Shown here one piece after another: positions 6,063-48,416 of a DNA stretch of 64,000 nucleotides (positions are counted from its first letter, which is position 1; each line of letters begins with the position of its first letter). This DNA comes from Corallium rubrum (taxonomy: Eukaryota > Cnidaria > Anthozoa > Scleralcyonacea > Coralliidae). A program made the translations under genes and the position numbers. The stretch spans positions 384,501 to 448,500 of the forward strand of contig CAXIUP010000141.1 in assembly GCA_964035015.1 (NCBI GenBank), given 5' to 3'. The notes under the pieces were generated by a model. The model had not been told where the DNA came from. It was given only the letters and a program-made list of their open reading frames with translations, and searched no databases.

Positions 6063-7087
6063 ATGACCGAATCAACGAAACCGATAGAAAGAAAACGAGC
6101 GATCCGGTCAGCGAACCGTGGAGTAATCACCAGATACATAAACGAAGCGAATGATCTTTTACAAGAAGAAGCAATTAATCGAGATCGTCTGGCTACAATT
6201 CAAGGGCTGCTTGACGAAAAGTTGGATGTTGTAAAACGACTCGACAGCGAAATACTTTAAACCTGCGAATTAAAGGATATCGAAAGAGATGTGGAAGAAT
6301 CGGAAGAAATCATTTCCAGAGTCATTGATACAAGGAAGAAGATAGCGAAAGCCACGAGCGAGATAGTCACACCGTCTATATCCCAGTTGGTTATAGATCA
6401 ACCTTCCGTACATGCCGCTGAAAATAATCACGTCGACTTGTCAACGCCCGCAATAGAACAGCAAAACGAAGTACCGCCTACAAACGACTCGCAACTGCCA
6501 ACGATAACTACAGAACACTCTCAAGTAAGTCAACAACATTATATTACAAAAACTAAGCTTCCAAAGTTAGTACTGCCAAGGTTTAAAGGAGACGTAACCA
6601 ATTTTCGTTCGTTTTGGGACAGATACGAAAGCGCTGTGCACAAGAATAGCGAGCTGTCAAAAATTGACAAGTTCAATTATTTATATTCGTTGCTCGAGGG
6701 GTCAGCTTTACGTTCAATCCAAGGCTTATCGTTTTAAAACTGACGAAAACTACCAAGCTGCTGTCGATCTGTTGCAACAACGATTTGGAAAACCATCATC
6801 CTGTCTGTTCTGGAGACAAGGCGTCGCAACTCCGTTTTATTTACGACAAAATAAGCGTGAATGTTAGAGGTCTCGAAGCGTTGGGAGTAAATTCAAGTCA
6901 ATACGGTAGTTTACTTATACCCATCATCATGTCTAAATTACCAGCAGAAATACGGATTCAGATAGCGAGAAATACGGCCGCCGAAGTGTGGAAAATTACC
7001 GACCTTTTAGAGGTTATTCGAAAGGAACTCGACGCCAGAGAACTCAGCGAGAAAGTTCGAACTGAAACTGACATCAACTGGAAATAG
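6063..7087 (+). pseudogene. BEL/Pao Gag (DUF1759 region), broken
   Basis: The ATG at 6063 starts MTESTKPIERKRAIRSANRG. The helical N-terminus runs to a stop at 6260, resumes at 6291, and a second break falls near 6737-6785. The segment LPKLVLPRFKGDVTNFRSFW, followed by KIDKFNYLYSLLEGSAL, is the conserved DUF1759 core of BEL/Pao Gag. It shapes the capsid and is normally fused to downstream zinc knuckles. With at least two frame breaks it cannot be translated as one protein. Confidence 0.75.
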
Positions 7088-7145
7088 GAACATCGAAATC
7101 CGAGTCGAAATCAATCATCTGCCTCAAATCTGTTTGTAAGGAACG

Positions 7146-7408
7146 AGGAAACAAACGAAACCAAGCCAAAATGTTTTTACTGTGGTGAACTTCATTTTTC
7201 CGCTTCTTGCAATCGAGTTAAAGACTTGAGCAAGCGAAAGGGTATCTTGACTCGAGATAAACGTTGTTATTTATGTCTGAAGCGTGGACACATTACAAAG
7301 GAATGTAAAAAACAACAAAACTGCCGGCGATGTGAAGGACGACACCACCAATCCATTTGCCAGCGAGACTCGAAGTCTGAGAAAACAGAGAAACAACCAT
7401 GCAGATGA
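7146..7408 (+). pseudogene. BEL/Pao nucleocapsid zinc knuckles
   Basis: Three consecutive knuckles are visible: CFYCGELHFSASC, CYLCLKRGHITKEC and CRRCEGRHHQSIC, i.e. CX2CX3-4HX4C. They bind genomic RNA in the Gag protein of the element. The frame ends at 7408, while the protease continues in another overlapping frame from 7284, so a frameshift separates them. Confidence 0.8.
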
Positions 7409-8576
7409 CAGTTCAACCAACGTTCATACTCAAAAGGTAACTAATAATTTTACAACCACCCGCAATTCATCCAAGGTCCTGTTGCAGACAGCAACAACGT
7501 TTGTTTATTCGAATCATGATGCTACAACTATCCCTGTTCGAGTCCTGATGGATAGTGGCAGTCAGCGAACGTATATCACTAATCATCTAAAGGACAGACT
7601 TGGTTTACAACCCACCAAAACAGAAACATTGAAATTGAATACATTTGGAGGGGATCGATTCAGGAAGAAACAGTGCGAGATTGTGAAGTTAAGCCTTCAA
7701 GGAACTGTTGAAGATATCGAGATTTCTGCAGTGTGCTTTCCTAAGATTTGTTCTCCTATATCTGCGAAGATTTGCCCTGATAATTATCCACACCTGAAAG
7801 GATTAAAGCTGGCTGATACAAGTTTAACCGAAACTGATAATGACACCATTGATATTCTCATTAGTTCAGATCATTATTTTGACATTATGGATGGTGAAAT
7901 TGTTCGAGGTGAGATGGGTCCAGTCGCAGTTGGTAGCAAGCTTGAGTGGATACTATCCGGTCCCACAAACAACACAGATATGGACGATCAATTCTCAATG
8001 GTCCACCTTATTACTGAAGTGAATGCAACTCAGGCAGTTCAGTCACCTTATTCTGGAAACAAGGATGATGAAAGTGGTATAATCGAAGAGGTTCCTGATG
8101 AAGATGATGATGATGAAGAAGTAGCATACAATTTACCCCATCATGGAGTAATTAGAGAAGATAAGCAGACAACAAAATTGCGTGTTGTCTTCGATGGCTC
8201 CGCCAATCCTGGTGCGAACAGTCCTTCTATCAATGAATGTCTTCAAAAGGGACCTAACCTGGTGCCTAATTTATTCGATACAATTATCAAGTTCCGAGGA
8301 CATCCAATAGGAATTCTCGCTGACATAGAGAAGGCATTTCACCAAATCCAGATAATGCCTGCTGACAGATGTATGCTCAGATTTCTTTGGTTTGATGATC
8401 CAAAGAAAGGAGAGCCCAAGATTAGAAAATTCCAGTTTTGCCGACTCGTATTTGGTCTTACTCCCAGTCCAGCAATTTTGGCAACTATAATTCAACGTCA
8501 TTTATCTATGCAGCTGAATGATTCATTTTATGTCGACGACTTTGCTGGGGGGCTCAGAATGATGATGATGCATTGA
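7284..8576 (+). pseudogene. BEL/Pao protease and reverse transcriptase, N-terminal part
   Basis: The 430-codon frame contains a retropepsin active site (VRVLMDSGSQRTYI), then after an acidic DEDDDDEE stretch the RT palm motifs VVFDGSANPG, LADIEKAFHQIQI and FCRLVFGLTPSP. The catalytic FYVDDF box lies near its end. The usual ~150-residue linker between protease and the LPHHGVIRED motif looks shortened, suggesting an internal deletion. The frame shifts just after the YVDD box. Confidence 0.85.
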
Positions 8577-9911
8577 ATGTCTATGAAAGAGTCCAAGCAT
8601 TCATGAAAGATGGGGGCTTCACATTGAGAAAATGAACCTCCAATTCGAAGGCATTTCGAAAAGGGTTGCGAGCAGTGAGCAAGAGGAAGACCTCCAATCC
8701 CTAAAGTGGTCTAAATTGGAATATAGAAAGTGATGAATTCTATTTTGATCCAACCAAGCTCCTGGCATATGCTGCATCTCTACTGCCTACCAAGAGATCT
8801 GTCTTGAAGCTTGCGGCGAAGATCTTTGATCCCATTGGTATATTGACACCTTTTACCATCAACATGAAGTGTCTATTCCAAACTTTGTGCACTGATCATG
8901 TCGATTGGGATACAGAGTTGGATGGTAAATCGTTAACCATTTGGAAGTCGCTGTTAAAAGATCTACAAGCCATCAGGTCTATCAACGTGCCCCGGTGTTA
9001 CTTCACTCGCTCAGGTATGATTACAAACCAAGAGATTCATGGATTCTGTGATGCTTCAGAGAGAGCGTTTGCTGCTGTTGTTTATCTACGCACAAAATAC
9101 GAAGATGGAACTATTGAAGTGAATTTGGTTTCATCGAAGACAAGAGTAGCGCCGCTAAAACAGCAGTCTATTCCCAGGCTAGAGTTACTTGGAGCGAACA
9201 TTTTAGCCCGACTGGTGAATTCTGTATTGAAAGCCATTTCGTCAATCGTCAACAAACCTAAAGCATTTCTATGGACGGATTCGTACACAACGCTGTGTTG
9301 GATAAAGAACATAAGATATGGAAGCAATACATTCAACGCCGTGTTAAGGAAATCAGACAACTAACGAGTGAAGATCAATGGAACTTTTGCCCTGGTGAGC
9401 TTAACGCTGCTGACTTACCTTCGAGAGGTTGTTCTGGATCTACGCTAGCTGAGAACGAGAAATGGTTCCATGGTCCGGAGTTCCTGAAGCATCCCCCAAA
9501 TCAATGGCCAAAATTACCTCATCAAACGAGTTTGGTTAATGAAATTGCATTGTCAGAAGCTGTCAAAGTTCCTCCTACTGTTACGCACAACCTCTTAACC
9601 TTAAATGGTGACGAGGTTCCGTTTTCAAACGCCAGAATCGGAATGGTAATGGACTGCAGCAATCACAGCACCCTGACGAAGGTACTACGAGTTACAGCAC
9701 TTGTTCTACGATTTATCAGGAAATTGAAACGACAAAAAACTGGTAACGAGACGACGCAGGAGTTAACTGCCGATGACCTCAAGGAAGCCGAAATGCTTTG
9801 GATCAGTCACATTCAAGCGACTTCATTTCCCGAAGAAATTCGTCGTTTAAGTGCGAAACAATGTGTACCAAACCAACTAATCAGTCAGCTGAACTTGTTT
9901 CTCGACAAGAA
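8577..9911 (+). pseudogene. BEL/Pao RT thumb, RNase H and connection, frameshifted
   Basis: The region continues the polyprotein in several frames. 8804-9364 carries AAKIFDPIGILTPFTINMK and the RNase H-like EIHGFCDASERAFAAVVYLR. 9271-9911 continues with the WNFCPGELNAADLPSRGC segment typical of the BEL/Pao RNase H end and tether. Breaks lie at about 8577-8800 and 9300-9364. The frame is then cut by a MITE at 9912. Confidence 0.75.
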
Positions 9912-10218
9912 CATAGTTAATAGAAAATATACATGGTTTGGAAACCCGGCAAAGTTCAGAGCGCTTAACAATCAAGCTACGATTCATCTTGAAAGGCACA
10001 CGAAGGTGCCAAATCCTTTGTTTTAGGTTAATTAATATTTAAACAGTACGGTTGAGTGATTGAAGCCAAACGTTGCTATTGGATGATTGCTTCATTATAC
10101 AGAAAACACAATATGTTCAGTAACCATGAAAGTGCAAAAATTTCCATAAACCTGAACAAAAACATAAAACAATGACTTTTGTGAGCTTCCAAACCATGTA
10201 TATTTTCTATTAACTATG
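9912..10218. mobile_element. MITE inserted in the BEL/Pao polyprotein
   Basis: ATAGTTAATAGAAAATATAC at the left end is repeated inverted at 10189-10218. The interior matches, in reverse, the interior of the 16451-16747 element (for example CGGTTGAGTGATTGAAGCC versus TTCAGTTCAATCACTCAACCG), so the two belong to one family. Polyprotein coding resumes immediately after it. Confidence 0.75.
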
Positions 10219-11571
10219 GTCTGGAACATTCTGCCTTGCCAACTGATGCAAAGACACCGGTCCTTCTGCCCTCCAGACACCATCTTACAGACCTGCTCAT
10301 TCGAAATCGCCACGAAATCGTTCATCATGGAGGAATTAAAGACACGCTGAACTGTGTTCGAGATACCTATATTGGGTTTTGCGAGGACGGGAAACCGTAA
10401 AGCGTTTGCTGAAGAAGTGCCCCAACTGCAAGAAACATGAAGGCAAATCGTTTCCTACCCCGAAAATCCCACAATTACCACTCAGTCGAGTAAGTGACGA
10501 CCCGCCCTTCACACATACGGGGCTCGATTTCGCTGGTCCCCTGTTGGTACGAGTGGGTGAAAAAAACGAAAAGTCCTACGTTTGCCTTTACACGTGTGCA
10601 TCTACAAGAGCCGTTCACTTAGAGTTGTTAAGGAACTTATCAACTGACACGTTTCTACAATCCTTTCGACGTTTTTCTGGCCGCCGAGGAATCCCAAAGA
10701 AGCTAATTTCTGACAACGCAAAAACCTTCAAGGCTGCTGCCAAGGAAATAGTTACTATCTCTCGCGCAGATGAAGTTCAACGCTACCTTACGAACAAGGT
10801 GTCCTTTGGGACTTCATCACAGAAAGAGCACCGTGGCATGGGGGGTTTTGGGAACTCCTCATTAAAAGTACGAAACGTTGTTTAAAGAAATCTATAGGGA
10901 AGGCCTCCCTGTCATTCGAAGAGCTGCGAACAGTGTTGGTAGAAATTGAAGCAACTTTGAACAACCGACCACTAACGTACATCTACGATGATGAAGAAGG
11001 TGTTTCGTATCCTCTAACTCCATCCTGTCTCATATATGGACGAAGAATAGCAACAACGCCGAATGACTGTCAGTTCGAGATTGCCAGCTCAAACAAATCG
11101 TTAACACGACGAGTCAAGCATCTAAATCGGATCTTACGAAACTTCACAGCGCAGTGGCGGAGAAAGTATCTGTTAAGCTTACGCGAATCATTAAGGGCAA
11201 AATTGGTTGGTACTGAAACGATATCTGTTGGAGATGTCGTTGTTCTGAGAAACGAAACTACGCCACGTATATTTTGGAAACTGGCTATGGTAGAGGAACT
11301 TCTCCCAAGCGATGACGGTATTGTTAGATCAGCGAAGATAAGAGTTTTGAATAAGGACTGCAAGAAGATAATCTACCTGCGAAGGCCAATTCAACATTTG
11401 GTGCCGTTAGAAATATGCAACGAACCGGAACCAGCGAAGGGAGGTGACAATAAACTGCCCGATGAACCTGCTAAGGTTGATAACCCGAATGAAGAAAGAC
11501 GAACGAGACGCAAAGCAGCGGTGATCGGAGAACTTAAAGTGCATATACGAGAATTTTCATTTTTTTTCTAA
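10219..11571 (+). pseudogene. BEL/Pao integrase, frameshifted
   Basis: The HHGGIKDTLNCVRDTYIGF stretch near 10319-10378 belongs to the HHCC-like N-terminal region. The DDE core reads GLDFAGPLLVRV (first Asp), KLISDNAKTF (second Asp) and, in a different frame from about 10803, APWHGGFWELLIKSTKR (Glu). The last frame (10933-11571) gives the chromodomain-like C-terminal SVGDVVVLRNE segment. Two frameshifts break the protein although the catalytic triad survives. Confidence 0.8.
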
Positions 11572-19205: not shown

Positions 19206-19211
19206 TATATA
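19206..19211. repeat. Candidate 6-bp target duplication, left (TATATA)
   Basis: TATATA directly precedes the AG start of the 7.5-kb element and recurs immediately after its CT end. Six bases is the Polinton length, but the motif is simple sequence. Confidence 0.5.
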
Positions 19212-19284
19212 AGTAGTGATACCCCCCCATATGGCGGATTCATAATTAATTAGGTAAATTGAATTTTTAATGAGCTCTATCAAT

Positions 19285-19740
19285 ATCCTCCTCAGGCTCC
19301 TTTGGGACCCTCTAACCTAATCTCATTATGCATACGTCATTATTTCTCATGCTCCTTTGGGACATAGTAACCCTAACTTTCCCCCCTAAACCCTGGCTGT
19401 TACTTAACCCCCCTGGTATTCACTACGTCATATATTCAACTTATTATTTATTCATTCTCAGGCTCCTTTGGGACGTCGTAACCCTAATTTTCCCCCCTAA
19501 ACCCTAGTTGTTACTCAACCCCCTGGTATTCACTACGTCATACCGACTTATTATTTATTCATTCTCAGACTCCTTTGGGACCTCCTAACCCTAACTTCAC
19601 CCCTAACCCTAGCCGTCACTCAACCCCCGGTTTTCACTACGTCATACCGACTTATTATTTATTCATTCTCAGACTCCTTTGGGACGTAGTAACCCTAACT
19701 TTTCCCCCCTAACCCTAGATGTTACTTAACGCCCCCGTCA
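19285..19740. repeat. Telomere-like subterminal tandem repeats, left
   Basis: Units of about 105-110 bp, each with a CTCCTTTGGGAC block, AACCCTAACTTTCCCCCCTA-type runs and CACTACGTCATA, repeat four to five times. The CCCTAA words resemble the metazoan telomere repeat in isolated copies, not long arrays. Confidence 0.7.
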
Positions 19741-20148
19741 TTCCCGATTGGTCTCCGACTGATTTCCGAAGTTACGTAAAAGGCACTGGACTTATCTCTT
19801 TATAACTAATAGAAACCAACTTTCATTTAAACCCTTAACCCTACTTATAGCCAACACTTGTGGGACACGTAGACGTACAGAGCATGCGTACAGTAAACTT
19901 TAACAAAATAGACGTTCTTTACAAGGAACTAAAAAGAAAGTGAGAGAGACACTTTATATTTTTTATCTGAAACCTTGTCTCGATGAGTATAGAGAGTTTT
20001 GGGCAGCCTAAGTGTCTGAATTGGCAGAGCTCGTATAGACTCAGATTAATAGCATACATGAATATTATATCAGTTTGGAACTTAAACGGCCAAACAGTTC
20101 TTTACCCATTTATTTGGACATATGTGCCGAATTGTCGCTTATTTGGCT

Positions 20149-20346
20149 TTAGTGTATAAAGTAAACGATGCCTTGAATGAAGAAACCGTTCGGCAAGCTG
20201 TTCGATAGACATTGAAACACTTTCTTCAGATAAACGGCTGACTCGGCTATTTTATTAACGTCGTCAAGCATCTTGTTAATGTTGCTACGGCTGATATTTG
20301 CATATTTATCCTGAGTGCACGTGCAGGACACAAAAGAAAAACTCAT
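20149..20346 (-). CDS. Small hypothetical protein, left-arm copy (65 aa)
   Basis: The frame starts MSFSFVSCTCTQDKYANI and ends FFIQGIVYFIH. It contains an amphipathic middle (INKMLDDVNKIAESAVYLKK) and no known motif. It is preserved intact in both arms, which mildly supports function. An identical copy lies at 25556-25753. It lies about 110 bases beyond the stop of the CxxC frame, on the same strand. I do not recognise the family. Confidence 0.35.
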   Translation of the reverse strand: MSFSFVSCTCTQDKYANISRSNINKMLDDVNKIAESAVYLKKVFQCLSNSLPNGFFIQGIVYFIH

Positions 20347-20453
20347 TAAGGGCAATTAAGAGGATTAAGCGCTTGGGCAGGTCTAGGCGAGAAAGTCATT
20401 AGCGTGTACTTTGCATAAGACAGAATTTACAACAATCGGTTTAAAATATTTAT

Positions 20454-20726
20454 TTACACAAAAAACTCTTGATTATTTAGTGATCTATCGGTAACACTAG
20501 CATATGGGCATATAGTACATCTTATAATCCGAAGGCATGGATCATGAGTCTTGAATTCTGTACCACAAACATTACATATCAGATTTCGAATAACGCATTT
20601 GTTAAAATATTTCCACAAACACTTAGGACACTCAATTACATGTGTAAAGTTAACAGGATTCTGACAACGTTCGCAATCAACAGGTTCGTCAATTATAGAA
20701 TTTTCTGATCTATTTCGGTGTAATCT
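20454..20726 (-). CDS. CxxC-rich zinc-binding ORF without ATG, left-arm copy
   Basis: Open for 90 codons, this frame overlaps the end of the 144-residue gene by 34 bases in the -1 frame and has no ATG before its cysteines. It carries paired cysteines (VDCERCQNP, IECPKCLWKY, LICNVCGTEF, DPCLRI, RCTICPYA), a pattern of a double zinc ribbon or RING-like fold. It ends QEFFV in this arm (QDFFV in the other). Translation would need a -1 frameshift from the acidic-tailed upstream gene, or splicing. A polyadenylation-type AATAAA overlaps the stop, suggesting the transcript ends here. Confidence 0.5.
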   Translation of the reverse strand, partial: RLHRNRSENSIIDEPVDCERCQNPVNFTHVIECPKCLWKYFNKCVIRNLICNVCGTEFKTHDPCLRIIRCTICPYASVTDRSLNNQEFFV

Positions 20727-21127
20727 TTATCGTGTTCGGAATCTTCTTCGGAGGAAGTTTCTTCGTTTTCGCTCTCTGATTCTGTTTCTTCTTCTGCCTG
20801 CGCCAACATTGTCAGCACTCGAACATTTTCGATAAGGTTTTTGTCAGTGTTAATGTCGGCGAGTCCTTTTACAAATACATTTAGACCAGCTGGTTCGGGA
20901 ATTCCTGAGAAGTAAGGTGATACGCAGTATTCTACCAATTCGGCTATTTTTGTGTTTGGTATAGTTCTTCCTTGATACACAATTTCTCCTTTGGGATTCC
21001 ATGTTAAGTTGACATAGGACGCGAGTAAACTATTCAGCAAAGAAGACGCTGTCGCTTCATCCACTCCGTAGTCAAAGTGTGACAGTATTTCTTTAACACG
21101 AAAATCATCATGTAATCTTTCTCCCAT
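20693..21127 (-). CDS. Conserved small element protein, left-arm copy (144 aa)
   Basis: The ATG gives MGERLHDDFRVKEILSHFDY. A globular part contains LTWNPKGEIVYQGRTIPNT and VEYCVSPYFSGIP, followed by a strongly acidic tail (EEETESESENEETSSEEDSE). Proteins with a W-x-x-K/T-GE-x-x-x-x-x-x-TIPxxxIxxLV pattern are, from memory, common in invertebrate virus-like elements, but I cannot name the family. It starts 44 bases after the 105-residue gene, like a compact viral cluster. The copy at 24775-25209 is identical in protein. Confidence 0.6.
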   Translation of the reverse strand: MGERLHDDFRVKEILSHFDYGVDEATASSLLNSLLASYVNLTWNPKGEIVYQGRTIPNTKIAELVEYCVSPYFSGIPEPAGLNVFVKGLADINTDKNLIENVRVLTMLAQAEEETESESENEETSSEEDSEHDKDYTEIDQKIL

Positions 21128-21171
21128 CGTGTTCAGGGTTCGAATGAGGGCCTTTGCAAAATATCGTTCTT

Positions 21172-21489
21172 TTATATTAGTTCTGCGAGTCCTTCTAAAA
21201 CAGGACCAAGTAAGACATCAAGAAATCCTGCGCCTTTTTGAATCAGTATCTCCTTTTTTCTCATAAAACTACTTCGGGAACTAGCCAAAGTTGATATGTC
21301 GTCGCTATAAGGCTTAACGTCTTCAAGCAAAGCAGGTGATAATTGATATTGCATTGACCAAAAGTTAAACATACAATCACAAATGCATCTAATTTGCTCG
21401 GGGCTTGCAGTCTCCAACAGAGCTCGCTGTTGAATAGGTTCACTTGTACATAAAAGTTCAAGAAACGGTTTGTGCTTTTTGATCAACAT
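21172..21489 (-). CDS. Conserved small element protein, left-arm copy (105 aa)
   Basis: MLIKKHKPFLELLCTSEP opens a mostly helical protein: RALLETASPEQIRCICDCM, then MRKKEILIQKGAGFLDVLLG and a hydrophobic end PVLEGLAELI. The arrangement of an ALLxxAxxExIxxIxxC helix, a KK-rich segment and a Gly-rich hydrophobic tail recurs, from memory, in small basic proteins of adinto- or parvo-like invertebrate elements. That match is unverified. It is the first gene downstream of the purine tract. The right-arm copy differs by one residue (SSFMRKK versus SSFLRKK). Confidence 0.6.
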   Translation of the reverse strand: MLIKKHKPFLELLCTSEPIQQRALLETASPEQIRCICDCMFNFWSMQYQLSPALLEDVKPYSDDISTLASSRSSFMRKKEILIQKGAGFLDVLLGPVLEGLAELI

Positions 21490-21545
21490 CTCTATTTGAC
21501 AGTCAGTGTCTAAATGAGGAAAACGCTACCAAAACACACATTTTA

Positions 21546-22394
21546 AGAGGAGGAGAAAGAGGAGGAGGAGGAGAAAGAGGAGGAGGAGGAGGAGGAGGAG
21601 GAGGAGAAGGAGGAGGAGAAAGAGGAGGAGGAGGAGGAGGAGAAAGAGGAGGAGGAGGAGGAGAAAGAGGAGGAGGAGGAGAAAGAGGAGGAGGAGGAGG
21701 AGGAGAAGGAGAAGGAGGAGGAAAAAGAGGAGGAGGAGGAGGAGAAAGAGGAGGAGGAGGAGTAGAAAGAGGAGGACGAGAAAGAGGAGGAGGAGGAGAA
21801 AGAGGAGGAGGAGGAGGAGGAGGAGAAAGAGGAGGAGGAGGAGGAGGAGGAGAAAGAGGAGGAGGAGAAAGAGGAGGAGGAGAAAGAGGAGGAGGAGGAG
21901 GAGGAGGAGGAGGAGGAGGAGAAGGAGGAGGAGGAGGAGGAGGAGAAGGAGGAGGAGGAGAAAGAGGAGGAGGAGAAAGAGGAGGAGGAGAATGAGGAGG
22001 AGAAAGAGGAGGAGAAAGAGGAGGAGGAGGAGAAGGAGGAGGAGAAAGAGGAGGAGGAGGAGAAGAGGAGGAGAAAGAGGAGGAGGAGAAAGAGGAGGAG
22101 GAGGAGGAGGAGAAAGAGGAGGAGGAGGAGAAAGAGGAGGAGGAGGAGAAAGTGGAGGAGGAGAAAGAGGAGGAGGAGAAAGAGGAGGAGAAAGAGGAGG
22201 AGGAGGAGGAGGAGAAAGAGGAGGAGAAAGAGGAGAAAGAGGAGGAGAAGGAGGAGGAGGAGGAGGAGGAGGAGGAGGAGGAGGAGGAGGAGGAGGAGGA
22301 GAAAGAGGAGGAGGAGAAGGAGAAAGAGGAGGAGGAGGAGAAAGAGGAGGAGGAGGAGGAGGAGGAGGAGAAAGAGAAGAAGGAGTAGGAGTAG
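21546..22394. repeat. (GGAGGAGAAAGA)n purine tract, ~850 bp
   Basis: The plus strand is almost pure G/A (GGAGGAGGAGAAAGAGGAGG repeats), with rare interruptions. All six long open frames across it encode Ser, Pro, Leu, Arg, Gly or Glu runs and are artefacts of the repeat. It lies between the left-arm genes and the ATPase stop. Confidence 0.9.
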
Positions 22395-22482
22395 GAGGAA
22401 CAAATAAACACATACATACAAAAGCATTTAGCTTAAAAATATTTATTTCGGTTTTCGTTCAAACATATACATATAAAAAGTT

Positions 22483-23865
22483 TTAGTAAGGTCTGCTTCT
22501 TAGATTATATTTAGGCGTTTTTATTTTAAAGGTAGCGTGATAGTCTTTCTTGTCTTCTGGTGATAATTGTGATACATCTTCTTTTGTCATGGGTAAATAT
22601 TTTGATCTAGTCATCAATAGATGATGTTCATACTCTTCTCTATCATCTGGGGTCATCTTTGCCAAGTCGCTTTCTTTCCAATCCGAAGAGCTTTCCCAAT
22701 TATGAAAGAAATTATGTTTAAGCGTCGGTTGTTCAACGGTAGGAGGCGGTGTTACAAAATAGGTTTTAGGTGTAGCATGGAAACTCCACGGAAGAGCGTC
22801 AGTTTCTTGCTTTATCTCCGGTGTCAAATTTTCTGTATTTTGCTGAGTTTGAAGATTAGTCAGAGGTTGAGACTGATTATGCAGTTGGTTTTGAAACGTC
22901 AGAAAACGTCCTAGCTGATTGGAGTAAAGTATGTTCTTTTCGTCAGGTGTTAACTGTGGCGCTTGTACAATATCTTGCATTTTTTGTTCTGTATTGTACA
23001 TGGCATTAACGATTGGAGGTAATTGATAGGATTGCTTTTGTATGAAACTACCCAGCTGTTGCTGCAGGCTTGAGCTATTTTCTCCAGGTAGAACATTGGT
23101 CTTGAGGCGATGATCGTCGTCCGTGGTCGGTTTCAGATCAAGCATTAAATAACCATGAGGACGAGTTGTGGCTTCCTCGTAACTCTTCATAAATTCATGG
23201 ACATGACCTGTGTTCACCTGCCGTGCCAAGACAGAAATTTGTTGCTTATCCCTCGGAGACTTGAATAGTACGATATAGTGTGCGTTGAGGCTGATGTTTC
23301 TTGTTTCTTTGCCTTGGTGAAATATATTCTGAACAATGTAGATCACGGAGAGATTCCTGTGATGACTACCTTTAGTAAATAGACTAGCAATACGTTTATC
23401 TCTTCCTGACTGATCCATGAGATCATCGAGGACGATCAGGTTACGTTGAGAGACCTCAAGAAAATTATCAGAGTCAATGTCGGAAGGTATACCCTCATAG
23501 AATTCGATGCCTGGTATTGTTTTGATCATTTCTAAATACATGGGCTGCCATTGCCCATAGCACCAAATGATACGTTCGAGAGGAGGATTAATCGTAGTTT
23601 TGGCGTTTTCAAGAAGCGTTTTCACCCATACTGTTTTACCACTCTGTGTGCATCCAGCGACAATGCAAGTAAATGGATGCTGCATGACTGTTGCGTCATT
23701 GAGAAGATGTGCTGGTCTTGAATAAGTACTGTTTTTATGGAAATTTTTTATATGACGTTGCATGTTGAATAGTGTAGAAAACGTTTTTCCACAAATGCTG
23801 CAGACATAAGACATGTTAACTCGTTGAAGAACATGAGCAGAATAAACATTTCTAGAGAATGTCAT
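22483..23865 (-). CDS. C2H2-finger + A32/FtsK-type DNA-packaging ATPase
   Basis: The 460-residue frame has one classical zinc finger at about residues 22-43 (CSICGKTF...HIKNFH; C22, C25, H38, H43). A P-loop ATPase follows, with Walker A GCTQSGKT at 71-78, Walker B NLIVLDDL at 142-149, and a polar strand with VIYIVQN near 174-180. This layout matches the poxvirus A32/Polinton FtsK-HerA packaging ATPases, which pump genomes into capsids. The C-terminal ~200 residues are Gln/Pro-rich and end KYNLRSRPY. A second start at codon 18 (MSYVCSICG) would still keep the finger. AATAAA on the coding strand lies about 40 bases past the stop. The finger fusion is unusual; it might bind element ends. Confidence 0.78.
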   Translation of the reverse strand: MTFSRNVYSAHVLQRVNMSYVCSICGKTFSTLFNMQRHIKNFHKNSTYSRPAHLLNDATVMQHPFTCIVAGCTQSGKTVWVKTLLENAKTTINPPLERIIWCYGQWQPMYLEMIKTIPGIEFYEGIPSDIDSDNFLEVSQRNLIVLDDLMDQSGRDKRIASLFTKGSHHRNLSVIYIVQNIFHQGKETRNISLNAHYIVLFKSPRDKQQISVLARQVNTGHVHEFMKSYEEATTRPHGYLMLDLKPTTDDDHRLKTNVLPGENSSSLQQQLGSFIQKQSYQLPPIVNAMYNTEQKMQDIVQAPQLTPDEKNILYSNQLGRFLTFQNQLHNQSQPLTNLQTQQNTENLTPEIKQETDALPWSFHATPKTYFVTPPPTVEQPTLKHNFFHNWESSSDWKESDLAKMTPDDREEYEHHLLMTRSKYLPMTKEDVSQLSPEDKKDYHATFKIKTPKYNLRSRPY

Positions 23866-23871
23866 ATTATT

Positions 23872-24354
23872 TATTTCTCCTCCTCCTCTTTCTCCTCCTC
23901 CTCTTCTTTCTCCTTCCTCCTTCTCCTCCTCTTTCTCCTCCTCCTCCTCTTTCTCCTCCTCCTTCTTTCTCCTTCTCCTCCTCCTCCTCTTTCTCCTCCT
24001 CCTCCTCCTCCTTCTCCTCCTCTTTCTCCTCCTCCTCTTCCTCCTCCTCTTTCTCCTCCTCCTCCTCCTCCTCCTCCTCTTTCTCCTCCTCCTCTTTCTC
24101 CTCCTCCTCTTTCTCCTCCTCCTCCTCCTTTTTCTCCTCCTCCTCCTCCTCCTCCTCCTCCTCTTTCTCCTCCTCCTTCTCCTCCTCCTCCTCCTCCTCC
24201 TCTTTCTCCTCCTCCTCCTCTTTCTCCTCCTCCTCCTCCTCTTTCTCCTCCTCCTCCTCCTCCTCTTTCTCCTCCTCCTTCTCCTCCTCCTCCTCCTCCT
24301 CCTCCTCCTCCTCCTCCTCCTCTTTCTCCTCCTCCTCCTCTTTCTCGTCCTCCT
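23872..24354. repeat. (TCTTTCTCCTCC)n pyrimidine tract, ~480 bp
   Basis: This is the mirror of the left purine tract but shorter. It separates the divergently oriented ATPase start and the right-arm 105-residue gene, so it occupies the place of a shared promoter region. Confidence 0.9.
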
Positions 24355-24412
24355 CTTAAAATGTGTGTTTTGGTAGCGTTTTCCTCATTTAGACACTGAC
24401 TGTCAAATAGAG

Positions 24413-24730
24413 ATGTTGATCAAAAAGCACAAACCGTTTCTTGAACTTTTATGTACAAGTGAACCTATTCAACAGCGAGCTCTGTTGGAGACTGCAAGCC
24501 CCGAGCAAATTAGATGCATTTGTGATTGTATGTTTAACTTTTGGTCAATGCAATATCAATTATCACCTGCTTTGCTTGAAGACGTTAAGCCTTATAGCGA
24601 CGACATATCAACTTTGGCTAGTTCCCGAAGTAGTTTTCTGAGAAAAAAGGAGATACTGATTCAAAAAGGCGCAGGATTTCTTGATGTCTTACTTGGTCCT
24701 GTTTTAGAAGGACTCGCAGAACTAATATAA
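24413..24730 (+). CDS. Conserved small element protein, right-arm copy (105 aa)
   Basis: Same protein as 21172-21489 apart from Leu for Met in SSFLRKKEIL. It starts about 60 bases after the pyrimidine tract ends and is transcribed away from the central ATPase. The 144-residue gene follows after 44 bases. Intact reading frames in both arms argue that the duplication is recent or the gene is under constraint. Confidence 0.6.
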   Translation: MLIKKHKPFLELLCTSEPIQQRALLETASPEQIRCICDCMFNFWSMQYQLSPALLEDVKPYSDDISTLASSRSSFLRKKEILIQKGAGFLDVLLGPVLEGLAELI

Positions 24731-24774
24731 AAGAACGATATTTTGCAAAGGCCCTCATTCGAACCCTGAACACG

Positions 24775-25209
24775 ATGGGAGAAAGATTACATGATGATTT
24801 TCGTGTTAAAGAAATACTGTCACACTTTGACTACGGAGTGGATGAAGCGACAGCGTCTTCTTTGCTGAATAGTTTACTCGCGTCCTATGTCAACTTAACA
24901 TGGAATCCCAAAGGAGAAATTGTGTATCAAGGAAGAACTATACCAAACACAAAAATAGCCGAATTGGTAGAATACTGCGTATCACCTTACTTCTCAGGAA
25001 TTCCCGAACCAGCTGGTCTAAATGTATTTGTAAAAGGACTCGCCGACATTAACACTGACAAAAACCTTATCGAAAATGTTCGAGTGCTGACAATGTTGGC
25101 GCAGGCAGAAGAAGAAACAGAATCAGAGAGCGAAAACGAAGAAACTTCCTCCGAAGAAGATTCCGAACACGATAAAGATTACACCGAAATAGATCAGAAA
25201 ATTCTATAA
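24775..25209 (+). CDS. Conserved small element protein, right-arm copy (144 aa)
   Basis: Identical in protein to 20693-21127: globular N-terminal part with GEIVYQGRTIPNTKIAELV and an acidic C-terminal tail. Its stop lies within the overlap with the CxxC frame. The acidic tail could contact basic DNA-binding partners, but this is speculation. Confidence 0.6.
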   Translation: MGERLHDDFRVKEILSHFDYGVDEATASSLLNSLLASYVNLTWNPKGEIVYQGRTIPNTKIAELVEYCVSPYFSGIPEPAGLNVFVKGLADINTDKNLIENVRVLTMLAQAEEETESESENEETSSEEDSEHDKDYTEIDQKIL

Positions 25210-25448
25210 TTGACGAACCTGTTGATTGCGAACGTTGTCAGAATCCTGTTAACTTTACACATGTAATTGAGTGTCCTAAGTGTTTGTGGAAATATTTTAA
25301 CAAATGCGTTATTCGAAATCTGATATGTAATGTTTGTGGTACAGAATTCAAGACTCATGATCCATGCCTTCGGATTATAAGATGTACTATATGCCCATAT
25401 GCTAGTGTTACCGATAGATCACTAAATAATCAAGATTTTTTTGTGTAA
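25176..25448 (+). CDS. CxxC-rich zinc-binding ORF without ATG, right-arm copy
   Basis: Ninety codons in the -1 frame relative to the 144-residue gene, bounded on the 5' side by a TAA at 25173-25175. The cysteine spacing (CERC, CPKC, C, CNVC, C, CTIC) is conserved with the left-arm copy. It has no ATG upstream of the cysteines. AATAAA at 25448-25453 overlaps the TAA stop. Expression as an extension of the 144-residue protein by frameshift or splicing is inference. Confidence 0.5.
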   Translation, partial: RLHRNRSENSIIDEPVDCERCQNPVNFTHVIECPKCLWKYFNKCVIRNLICNVCGTEFKTHDPCLRIIRCTICPYASVTDRSLNNQDFFV

Positions 25449-25555
25449 ATAAATATTTTAAACCGATTGTTGTGAATTCTGTCTTATGCAAAGTACACGC
25501 TAATGACTTTCTCGCCTAGACCTGCCCAAGCGCTTAATCCTCTTAATTGCCCCTA

Positions 25556-25753
25556 ATGAGTTTTTCTTTTGTGTCCTGCACGTGCACTCAGGATAAATAT
25601 GCAAATATCAGCCGTAGCAACATTAACAAGATGCTTGACGACGTTAATAAAATAGCCGAGTCAGCCGTTTATCTGAAGAAAGTGTTTCAATGTCTATCGA
25701 ACAGCTTGCCGAACGGTTTCTTCATTCAAGGCATCGTTTACTTTATACACTAA
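25556..25753 (+). CDS. Small hypothetical protein, right-arm copy (65 aa)
   Basis: Same sequence as 20149-20346. There is no recognisable domain. A helical DDVNKIAESAVYLKKVF stretch is the only visible structure. It may be non-coding sequence kept open by chance between two near-identical arms. Confidence 0.35.
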   Translation: MSFSFVSCTCTQDKYANISRSNINKMLDDVNKIAESAVYLKKVFQCLSNSLPNGFFIQGIVYFIH

Positions 25754-26169
25754 AGCCAAATAAGCGACAATTCGGCACATATGTCCAAATAAATGGGTAA
25801 AGAACTGTTTGGCCGTTTAAGTTCCAAACTGATATAATATTCATGTATGCTATTAATCTGAGTCTATACGAGCTCTGCCAATTCAGACACTTAGGCTGCC
25901 CAAAACTCTCTATACTCATCGAGACAAGGTTTCAGATAAAAAATATAAAGTGTCTCTCTCACTTTCTTTTTAGTTCCTTGTAAAGAACGTCTATTTTGTT
26001 AAAGTTTACTGTACGCATGCTCTGTACGTCTACGTGTCCCACAAGTGTTGGCTATAAGTAGGGTTAAGGGTTTAAATGAAAGTTGGTTTCTATTAGTTAT
26101 AAAGAGATAAGTCCAGTGCCTTTTACGTAACTTCGGAAATCAGTCGGAGACCAATCGGGAATGACGGGG

Positions 26170-26625
26170 GGGGGGGTTAAGTAACATCTAGGGTTAGGGG
26201 GGAAAAGTTAGGGTTACTACGTCCCAAGGAGTCTGAGAATGAATAAATAATAAGTCGGTATGACGTAGTGAAAACCGGGGGTTGAGTGACGGCTAGGGTT
26301 AGGGGTGAAGTTAGGGTTAGGAGGTCCCAAAGGAGTCTGAGAATGAATAAATAATAAGTCGGTATGACGTAGTGAATACCAGGGGCGTTGAGTAACAACT
26401 AGGGTTTAGGGGGGAAAATTAGGGTTACGACGTCCCAAAGGAGCCTGAGAATGAATAAATAATAAGTTGAATATATGACGTAGTGAATACCAGGGGGGTT
26501 AAGTAACAGCCAGGGTTTAGGGGGGAAAGTTAGGGTTACTATGTCCCAAAGGAGCATGAGAAATAATGACGTATGCATAATGAGATTAGGGTTAGAGGGT
26601 CCCAAAGGAGCCTGAGGAGGATATT
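26170..26625. repeat. Telomere-like subterminal tandem repeats, right
   Basis: Mirror of 19285-19740, with TTAGGG-containing units (for example AGGGTTAGGGGGGAAAAGTT) spaced about 105-110 bp. Confidence 0.7.
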
Positions 26626-26695
26626 GACAGAGCTCATTAAAAATTCAATTTACCTAATTAATTATGAATCCGCCATATGGGGGGGTATCACTACT

Positions 26696-26701
26696 TATAT
26701 A
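26696..26701. repeat. Candidate 6-bp target duplication, right (TATATA)
   Basis: Immediately follows the CT end of the element and matches 19206-19211. Confidence 0.5.
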
Positions 26702-35381: not shown

Positions 35382-36433
35382 TTAATATTTTGTTCTAAAA
35401 CCTTTGCCTGTTATTACAGCATCAATTCGACGTGGCATGCTTAATATAAGATTGTTAATAAAATCTACAGAACTTTCTAGTATTGTTTTGCGAACTCTTG
35501 CTTTGAACTCACACCATGACTCGCGTATAATGCCCGTTTCCCGCGCCTGAAATTCGAGTTCCTTCTTAACAATGTGAAAAAAGTTCTCGATAGGATTGAG
35601 ATCAGGAGAACGAGGAGGGATGACAAATAGTTTACTGCCTTGATTTTGGATGGCTTTCATTGCAGCAGCACTTGTTTGGGATGGGTCGTTATCCATTATA
35701 AACATCTTTTCACCAGTACGACCAGAAAAGAGAATAGGAAAATTTCTTTCAATAAAATCGGAGAAATAGTTCCCGTTCATTTTCTTGTATTCTTCTGCCA
35801 ATATAACTCCTTTACTGTACGCAATAGCCACGAGAAGATGCAAGGACTTACCACCAGGTAATGTTTTTGATCCCTTACTCGTTATTTGAAGGCCTTCCTT
35901 TTTCTTTCTCCATACCTTTCCCTTTGGTACTACAGCTTGTCCCATTGGGTTTGTCTTGAATACAAACGACACTCCATCCAAGTAGAACGCAATATTCTGA
36001 TGGAAAAACTGAGGGTTTCCTTTTAAAATTTGCTTACATTTTCGAGCAAATTTTAGACGTTTAATACGATCTAACCGGCTCAACACTCTTTTTTGCGCGC
36101 TTGTAAATACTGGAATCCCTGAGACCGAACTTCTCGGTAAAATGTTCGATAGGACACATCGTATCTATTAAGTCCGCTATAAGAAATTAATGTCTTTAAT
36201 GAGAAATTCGGATTCACAACACGCAACTGAACGATAGAGCGAGCCAGCTGCCTTCTATCACGTTCCGACAATTTCTTTGGACGTCCCCCTTGTCTGCTTT
36301 TTCTCACTATTATTATACAATATATAAAAATAGATTTACTACCAGGATAAATTTGAATTACGACATGAGTACATAATAAAACTGTTCTTAAACCGATTTG
36401 TCTCCCATTTTGCATGGTAGTATGAATTTCCAA
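35382..36433 (-). pseudogene. Tc1/mariner transposase (DD34E), one frameshift
   Basis: The N-terminal frame (36080-36433) contains a GGRPKKLSERDRRQLARSI helix-turn-helix with a GRPK linker. The C-terminal frame (35382-36086) holds the catalytic core: FYLDGVSF (first Asp), MFIMDNDPSQ (second Asp) and PRSPDLNPIENFF (Glu). There are 34 residues between the second Asp and the Glu, i.e. DD34E as in Tc1. The frames meet at 36080-36086 around QARKKEC/MLSR, so one small indel inactivates an otherwise complete gene of about 330 residues. The transposon ends were not identified with confidence. Confidence 0.85.
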
Positions 36434-36592
36434 GGGTGTCTGATATTATACTCAGTTGTACATTTTTCAGGAAGCAGATCGTGAAGACGATGTTCACTAT
36501 TGTTAACGACAATACAGTGTTAAACATTTTTGTGCATATTTGGCTGTGATGATTGGATTAAGTGACTTAGTGTTCATCGTACTCTAGATTTG

Positions 36593-47099: not shown

Positions 47100-47309
47100 A
47101 TGCAAATCTCTGTGAAAAACTTTGTAGGAAAGACTATTATTCTCGAAGTAGAACCAAGCGATACGATCGATAATGTGAAGACCAAGATCTATCATAAAGA
47201 AGGAATTCTGCCCTGTGAACAGCGACTTACCTTCGCCGAGAATCAACTCGAAGACGACCGAACCTTGGAAGAATATAACGTTGAGAAACAATCCATCCTA
47301 ACCTTTCTT
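47100..47309 (+). pseudogene. Divergent ubiquitin fragment (70 of 76 residues)
   Basis: The frame starts [20 protein letters not shown] and continues [10 protein letters not shown] and [12 protein letters not shown], unmistakably ubiquitin. Relative to ubiquitin, K48 is Asn, I44 is Thr and L8 is Phe, while K6, K11, K27, K29, K33 and K63 are kept. The frame runs into DIRS sequence before the LRLRGG tail, so it cannot be conjugated. It sits exactly at the junction between the two opposed DIRS halves. Confidence 0.75.
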
Positions 47310-48416
47310 GGAAGCATGCCATCCGTGGATATTGTCATATCGAATGGCGGAAGTGTTAATGTCACTTGGTTGTGCTGTGTTAGTTGGCTCGATGACCACC
47401 ACTCCAATTCTTTGGACGCTTCTTTCGTCAAGGAGATTTGAAAAGTCTTGGATCTGGTGAAACGACCGTTCTTGTGTAGGGCTGCGATGTAGAGTCGTTG
47501 AAGGGCTCGGTAATACAATGGTACCTCCCAAATTCCGATCCTGGCAGTCTGGTTCATTCGACCCAACAGTGCTGATAGCACCACCATCGAACCTGCTCGT
47601 CTCTTCGCAAACTCCTGCACTCTGTCTGCAAGTTCTGGAGTTTGTCTTGAGGAACTGCAATGAATGGTCATCTTCTTGGAGTCCAGAGATGCCCCCAGGA
47701 AGACAACTGTTTGCGTTGGTGATGGTGAGCATTTCTCTTGATTGTTAATGAAACCGAGATCCGTGAGTAAGGTAGTTACTAGTTGAAATATCTTCTGTAA
47801 TTCGGCTGCATTCTGGTGGAGAATTAACAGGTCGTCCAAATAAATCACTACTCGTATTCCTGAAGATCGGAGAATGGAAATTACTGGTTTCAGCAGTTTG
47901 GTGAATGCTCGGAGATGCCGATGACAGGCCAAATGGCAAACACTGGTACTCGTATGTCACCCCTTGAAATTTGAATCGGAGCTTTACCACAAACATTGTT
48001 GACAAGAATTGATCGTCCTGATCCTGGACCTCCTTCACTGCTCCTTTTGCAACCAGATCCACTATTGCCTGAGACAATAAGGTTTTTTGTTCCATCGATC
48101 TGGCCTTGGTTATCCTTTTGCGCCACTGACGAGGCTTCGAAATTAGGATGCGATAACCCTCTACTGTTTCCAGGACTGATTTATCGGAAGTTATTATTTT
48201 CCAATTTTGTACAATTTTTCTTAGACGACCTGCTGTTTGTGATTCTGTAGACTTGATTTTGTTGAATTTGGGGGTCTCTTTTGATAGCCTTGCTCGTTTG
48301 GCAAAGGGAGGTCTGACTGACGTTGAGTGGTCATATATTGAACTTGGGTTTGGGTGGGATGGTTTCTTGTCGGACCATTTTCGTTTTTCCCACTGGCGCT
48401 GTGTATGGGGCAGCAA
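47310..48416 (-). pseudogene. DIRS-type reverse transcriptase, frameshifted
   Basis: The upstream frame (47745-48416) has ILISKPRQWRKRITKARSME-type linker text and YEYQCLPFGLSSASPS. After a frameshift near 47900 the next frame reads RSSGIRVVIYLDDLLIL (catalytic YLDD), VVFLGASLDSKKMTI and [10 protein letters not shown], where RNase H should begin. DIRS elements use such RT-RNase H fusions together with a tyrosine recombinase, which I do not see here. Coding stops at the ubiquitin/inversion junction. Confidence 0.75.

Follow-up and report, generated by a model that had tools for sequence, protein, structure and literature searches.

A stretch of 64,000 nucleotides from Corallium rubrum (GenBank assembly GCA_964035015.1, contig CAXIUP010000141.1, positions 384,501 to 448,500 of the forward strand; in the following, the window) contains a palindromic element of 7484 bp at 19212-26695. 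The element belongs to a family of many copies, encodes a predicted packaging-type ATPase and has no gene for a polymerase, an integrase or a capsid protein; we consider it reasonably probable that it is a satellite which depends for its spread on Polinton-type viruses resident in the genome it occupies. Since the polymerase, integrase and capsid genes are missing, the element is not an autonomous Polinton.

The termini read AGTAGTG...CACTACT. The AG/CT ends and the TATATA hexamers on both flanks (19206-19211 and 26696-26701), already described in the first-pass annotation, were confirmed. The two inverted arms of 2.3 kb at 19212-21543 (plus strand, beginning AGTAGTGATACCCCCCC) and 24359-26695 (plus strand, terminating in CACTACT) show 6 substitutions and 4 indel events between them when the purine tracts are excluded, the left arm being near-identical to the reverse complement of the right. 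Each arm contains an open reading frame (ORF) of 105 and one of 144 amino acids, which bears out the near-identical arms with duplicated genes of that annotation. A single ORF of 460 amino acids in the centre (22483-23865, minus strand) had been assigned to an A32/FtsK-type ATPase, in accordance with the Pox_A32 match reported below.

A PolB gene was not found in the element, where, except for the ATPase, the 105- and 144-residue products and low-complexity frames, no listed ORF exceeds 100 amino acids. Genes for an rve integrase, a capsid protein, a cysteine protease or a P-superfamily transposase were not found there either: no ORF is large enough for the integrase or a capsid protein, and no unassigned ORF is large enough for the transposase. 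Integrase genes are present in other elements of the genome. The 105- and 144-residue proteins gave no Pfam match, and two and one protein homologs, respectively, at E 1e-3 or better.

A multi-copy family with homogenised arms

The genome of the window itself (474 Mb, 312 contigs) was searched for further copies, as the first-pass annotation had proposed. At least 92 ATPase matches with identities of 87-100% were found (92 scored of 2199 candidates). An internal stop is absent from 88 of these 92 best-scoring copies, the true share of intact genes possibly being lower. Stretches of 10 kb each were fetched around 20 ATPase copies, and relatives of the element occurred at all of these further places. 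Inverted arm pieces are present on both sides in 20/20 stretches and the 105-residue gene in both arms in 17/20, one arm being interrupted in L030; in L012, L026 and L027 one arm is truncated or disrupted.

Besides the copies that resemble the element in the window (class 1), a second class was recognised. Its representative L032 comprises a 99.3% palindrome whose two arms each encode a 443-residue ATPase; no match to the 105- or 144-residue genes was obtained. L033 holds a 4.7-kb ATPase palindrome of the class 2 kind, inserted in a gene of a resident Polinton. L034 (L034:911-8182) is a hybrid, in which the small genes of the two arms are about 70% identical to each other; it nonetheless shows an exact 6-bp duplication.

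Both ends could be placed in 17 elements, namely the window element, 13 class 1 copies, L032, L034 and the nested one; seven fetched copies with ends not both placed stand outside this count. AG...CT termini were observed in 17/17 of them, and the 6-bp target duplication is exact in 14/17 and has one mismatch in 3/17. TATATA by itself is weak evidence for a duplication, the site being AT-rich with more TA adjoining, and the other copies provide non-repetitive, exact 6-bp duplications. Terminal inverted repeats are present as in Polinton/Maverick elements. AG ends and 6-bp duplications are features of the Polinton family.

For four arm pieces, the mean difference between the two arms of one copy amounts to 0.14-0.39%, compared to 0.53-3.83% between copies. 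In the 0.7-kb MID piece of 13 copies, the own right arm is nearest to the left arm in 11/13 cases if ties are allowed and strictly in 9/13; none of 20000 permutations did as well. Since arms are closer within a copy than between copies, the arms are homogenised as the element spreads. The sequences suggest that rewriting of one arm from the other occurs at about the same frequency as insertion of the element at new sites.

The 144-residue ORF is a truncated form of a gene of 223/224 amino acids. Among 41 ORFs of this gene, 25 have 224, two have 225 and two have 223 amino acids, the continuous 224-residue frame being the commonest form. The short form occurs in both arms of the window copy and of L013. 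L014 is mixed, with the short 144-residue form in one arm and the full form in the other, and is possibly a snapshot of arm conversion. Some constraint on the 105-residue gene is visible among close copies (nonsynonymous divergence dN 0.0078, synonymous divergence dS 0.0218). For the two diverged arms of L034, dN and dS are 0.43 vs 1.26 for the 223-residue gene and 0.32 vs 0.89 for the 105-residue gene.

The finger-ATPase

The 460-residue ORF combines a C2H2 finger with a Pox_A32 ATPase domain (Pfam E 9e-6 and 2.4e-7, respectively). Its structure model is modest, with a mean pLDDT (predicted local distance difference test) of 64.9 and a pTM (predicted template modelling score) of 0.50. Leading viral fold matches of this model are adenovirus IVa2, mimivirus and other A32-like packaging ATPases and Sputnik V3; the packaging NTPase B204 of Sulfolobus turreted icosahedral virus 2 (STIV2) holds rank 12 among the PDB fold matches.

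At E 1e-3 or better, 706 protein homologs were obtained. Among the best 120 of them, many lie on long ENA contigs, further ones come from JGI records, and two bear the name Oculina patagonica. Scans of IMG/VR with the ATPase and with the alignments A1, A2 and A3 revealed no confirmed relative; the terminal 16-mer has 3 exact matches in that database. No confirmed relative was found in GTDB contigs, and none in phage records.

The ratio dN/dS of the ATPase is 0.16 among 20 class 1 copies (the window copy and 19 of the 20 fetched ones, L020 being excluded); a comparison of these with the copies in L032-L034 gives 0.11. Both values are supportive and not conclusive, as a sample of top-scoring copies with high protein identity favours low dN. 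On these figures the ATPase looks to be under constraint. Between class 1 and class 2 together with L034, residues 18-47, which form the finger, are near synonymous saturation, and the ATPase core differs by only a few per cent in protein. This suggests a possible exchange of fingers between the classes by recombination. A test for fast diversification of the DNA-contact residues of the finger led us to discard this idea: among the 14 positions scored, helix position 6 varies least, and position 3 varies less than most.

Arrangement of the window copy and its surroundings

From either end towards the centre there follow subterminal repeats, a Cys-rich stretch adjoining the 144-residue ORF but in a different frame, the 105-residue ORF and a long GGA/TCC tract. 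In the left arm, tandem repeats with units of about 104-111 bp, rich in CCCTAA, extend over 19344-19735; their TTAGGG-rich counterpart in the right arm lies at 26171-26562. Eight CCCTAA hexamers were counted in 19212-19740 and nine TTAGGG in 26166-26695, compared to six of each in the remaining 56.5 kb of the window. These telomere-like hexamers might be bound by a host protein.

The 144-residue ORFs are located at 20693-21127 (minus strand) and 24775-25209 (plus strand), those of 105 residues at 21172-21489 (minus strand) and 24413-24730 (plus strand). The Cys-rich end of the 223/224-residue gene is out of frame in the window copy; it occupies 25176-25448 (plus strand) in the right arm and 20454-20726 (minus strand) in the left, the latter placed by hand as the mirror of the right-arm ORF. 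The ATPase gene is enclosed by a purine tract of the (GGA)n type (21545-22399, 855 bp) and its inverted partner, a (TCC)n-type tract of 479 bp (23877-24355). Outside the palindrome, further ORFs are found at 6261-11571, 35382-36445 and 47243-48416, whose translations resemble what we take to be a BEL-type retroelement, a Tc1/IS630-type transposase and another reverse-transcriptase element, respectively.

Larger relatives and candidate helpers in the genome

PolB (PF03175) gave 199 matched stretches in the genome (76 scored of 1079 candidates), many genes giving two, and the Polinton integrase gave at least 113 matches. Inverted pairs were counted with a limit of 10 kb among loci entered from the match listings. 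PolB forms 4 such pairs among 32 loci and the 460-residue ATPase 10 among 92; none was found among the 113 integrase matches. A second, shorter finger-ATPase family of 277 amino acids shows 39 inverted pairs among 150 places, 34 of them divergent, with a median distance of 1440 bp, and many of these look like even smaller palindromes. The 277-residue ATPase follows PolB on the same strand within 5 kb at 16/32 loci. None of the 92 matches of the 460-residue ATPase lies within 15 kb of an examined PolB locus.

C49 holds a PolB palindrome of 12285 bp with the duplication GACCTC, whose PolB ORF matches PF03175 with E 6.7e-48. In its centre lies a fragment of a finger-ATPase with 38% identity to the window ATPase over 164 columns. 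GATGTT is found at both ends in C25. In the PolB palindrome (L037:87-3551), a second ORF continues after the PolB ORF, and frames of 1.19-1.20 thousand amino acids recur at other loci; by our reading of the motifs, the PolB ORF presumably ends ahead of the last polymerase motif. An intron or a recoding event in PolB is possible.

C13 is not palindromic in the stretches read and shows the order PolB > finger-ATPase > 105-like > 223-like. Its 105-like product is 31% identical (E 3e-20) and its 223-like product 25% identical (E 4e-12) to the 105- and 223-residue proteins, respectively. Beyond the 223-like gene, on the other strand, follow a protease-like ORF (E 4e-5 to S273R of African swine fever virus, without a Pfam match) and an ORF of 449 amino acids, which we take, by its motifs only, to be a capsid protein. 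This capsid-like ORF has 142 matches in the genome, with two close inverted pairs at C30:409415+/414370- and C56:5454224-/5460790+. PolB, finger-ATPase and capsid-like ORFs occur within about 8 kb in C13, C82, C8 (31.05, 35.57 and 47.66 Mb), C49 (9.19 Mb) and C1 (11.06 Mb). The first-pass annotation had named larger related copies, with the palindrome as an internal fragment, as a finding that would refute it. What stands of this is common ancestry only: the larger elements share the block of genes, but identity is no more than 25-38% for the C49 ATPase fragment and the small proteins of C13.

A canonical Polinton is located at G000:C30:775577-799100 (L036, L033 and L035). It has its own A32 ATPase of 198 amino acids, an rve-chromo integrase, the duplication ACAGAC and the ends AGTAGTATAGG, and the 4.7-kb ATPase palindrome sits inside one of its genes. 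Its ORFs include some which, judging by motifs, we assume to be PolB-like, one of them with an endonuclease VII domain. This Polinton could have donated an integrase, but it was rejected as a parent of the window element because the match between their termini does not extend past AGTAGT.

The terminal 700 bases per element were compared. The C49 PolB palindrome matches the 4.7-kb ATPase palindrome over 174 terminal columns (78%, E 1e-41) and class 2 over 45 columns (91%, E 2e-13), and class 2 matches the window element over 430 subterminal columns (90%, E 1e-163). The terminal link of the window element to the PolB palindrome thus runs through class 2 only. None of the palindrome termini compared matches that of the C30 Polinton.

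Origin and mode of spread

The first-pass annotation had offered two alternatives, a derivative made by snap-back replication and a small lineage that borrows its polymerase and integrase. The data point to a combination of the two, namely a multi-copy lineage whose ATPase genes look constrained and which probably arose by snap-back and borrows these enzymes in trans. A snap-back origin is suggested by the fact that various portions of one virus type (PolB, the short ATPase and MCP-like, i.e. major-capsid-protein-like, genes) occur as inverted pairs, and that the window element, C49, L032 and L033 have repeat tracts where they turn back; the relative in C13 has the gene order expected of a parent.

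The window element moves like a Polinton and most likely works as a satellite of such viruses. A linear, protein-primed ancestor of the PolB > ATPase > 105 > 223 type would have snapped back near low-complexity tracts, giving two identical arms. A Polinton-type integrase, presumably supplied in trans, would join the ends to the host, leaving the AG/CT ends and 6-bp duplications that are observed. A trans-acting PolB may then copy from the ends with one arm templating the other, by which the arms would stay identical, in keeping with the observed homogenisation. Finally, the finger-ATPase, apparently kept by selection, would steer the DNA of its element into the capsids of a helper virus. In short, the trans-acting enzymes and the packaging role of the ATPase are inferences.

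A wider version would comprise a satellite system of animal Polinton-type viruses, made of palindromic units that each contain a different module of the ancestral virus, either PolB or the finger-ATPase together with two partner genes, in which both arms are rewritten from one template per cycle and the ATPase units possess their own zinc-finger packaging motor pulling DNA into helper capsids. This we put forward tentatively, as possible rather than probable. In C13 the 223-like gene is followed by a protease-like and a capsid-like gene, which weakens the simple idea of one ancestor cut into exactly two halves, as class 1 would then retain an inner block joined to an end.

Several observations weigh against a satellite with its own packaging motor. 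Within the 700 terminal bases, no direct match of significance was obtained between the terminus of the window element and those of the PolB palindrome, the 4.7-kb palindrome or the C30 Polinton. Neither a virion nor an extrachromosomal form was seen, the data offering no means to look for them. Homogenisation has exceptions, the arms of L025 differing at 21/705 sites of the MID piece. The 223/224-residue gene is truncated in both arms of the window copy and is without purifying selection within class 1 (dN 0.0034, dS 0.0037). The viral fold matches of the ATPase have low TM-scores (template modelling scores) of about 0.3 by query length on a model of pTM 0.50, and the leading PDB matches are RecA-like and other P-loop ATPases, not packaging enzymes. 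Up to a distance of 15 kb, no integrase of the type searched was found around any of the 32 PolB loci examined, and the capsid-like 449-residue ORF has no Pfam or PDB match.

A rival explanation is a plain non-autonomous transposon family that uses the integrase and polymerase of Polintons and is never packaged, its ATPase aiding replication or transposition or being a leftover. A capsid gene was not found in the element, the genome abounds in matches to integrase and PolB, and there is no direct sign of particles. However, a leftover would decay, and the ATPase matches are predominantly stop-free with low dN/dS, both among best-scoring copies; further, the leading viral fold matches are packaging ATPases. 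We regard this explanation as rather unlikely, if clearly the most serious of the rivals. Alternatively, larger viruses could shed palindromic snap-backs at each outbreak, which are then endogenised without forming an independent lineage. The inverted pairs of PolB, of the 277-residue ATPase and of the two MCP-like loci are in accordance with such repeated defective genomes. The 460-residue ATPase, however, is remote from the fragment in the C49 palindrome, and it is common to all 92 matches, away from the examined PolB loci, so that this origin appears improbable. Palindromes are a known assembly hazard, but the copies at many other sites, which differ in their flanks and show exact 6-bp duplications, and the substitutions between the arms of the window element itself argue strongly against an error of assembly or a single fold-back event in the chromosome of the host. 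This explanation deserves practically no credence.

Comparison with known systems

According to PMC6431247, Polintons are elements of 15-25 kb with PolB and integrase, protease and ATPase being among their most conserved ORFs; a coral adintovirus is named in PMC11071308. The window element shares AG/CT ends, 6-bp duplications, terminal inverted repeats and an A32/FtsK-type ATPase with Polinton/Maverick and adintovirus-type elements. It differs from them in its length (7.5 kb compared to the 15-25 kb given in PMC6431247), in having no PolB, integrase, protease or capsid genes, and in its repeats, which carry genes and make up most of its length.

Very long inverted repeats also dominate the Foldback/Galileo elements of Drosophila. 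Galileo is placed in the P superfamily, whereas the ends, 6-bp duplications and ATPase of the window element are Polinton-like. Defective palindromic adenovirus genomes are similar in that one end of a linear, protein-primed genome is duplicated in inverted orientation; here, in contrast, a multi-copy integrated family with arms homogenised within copies is observed. A description of palindromic, ATPase-only Polinton relatives was not found among the titles and abstract openings covered, subscription papers lying mostly outside this literature.

Phages are well known to have satellites that hijack their packaging, and to our knowledge none has been described for animal Polintons. The logic proposed here would resemble that of the phage-inducible chromosomal islands (PICI) and P4, i.e. 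a small element with its own packaging determinant and the capsid of a helper, packaging by the coral element being predicted from its ATPase; we know of no homology between them. As a single genome contains numerous copies with intact genes for the packaging-type ATPase, together with larger relatives and possible helpers, the satellite idea is directly testable. The homogenised arms are, moreover, a record of the replication mode, making linear Polinton replication with interacting ends testable from sequence.

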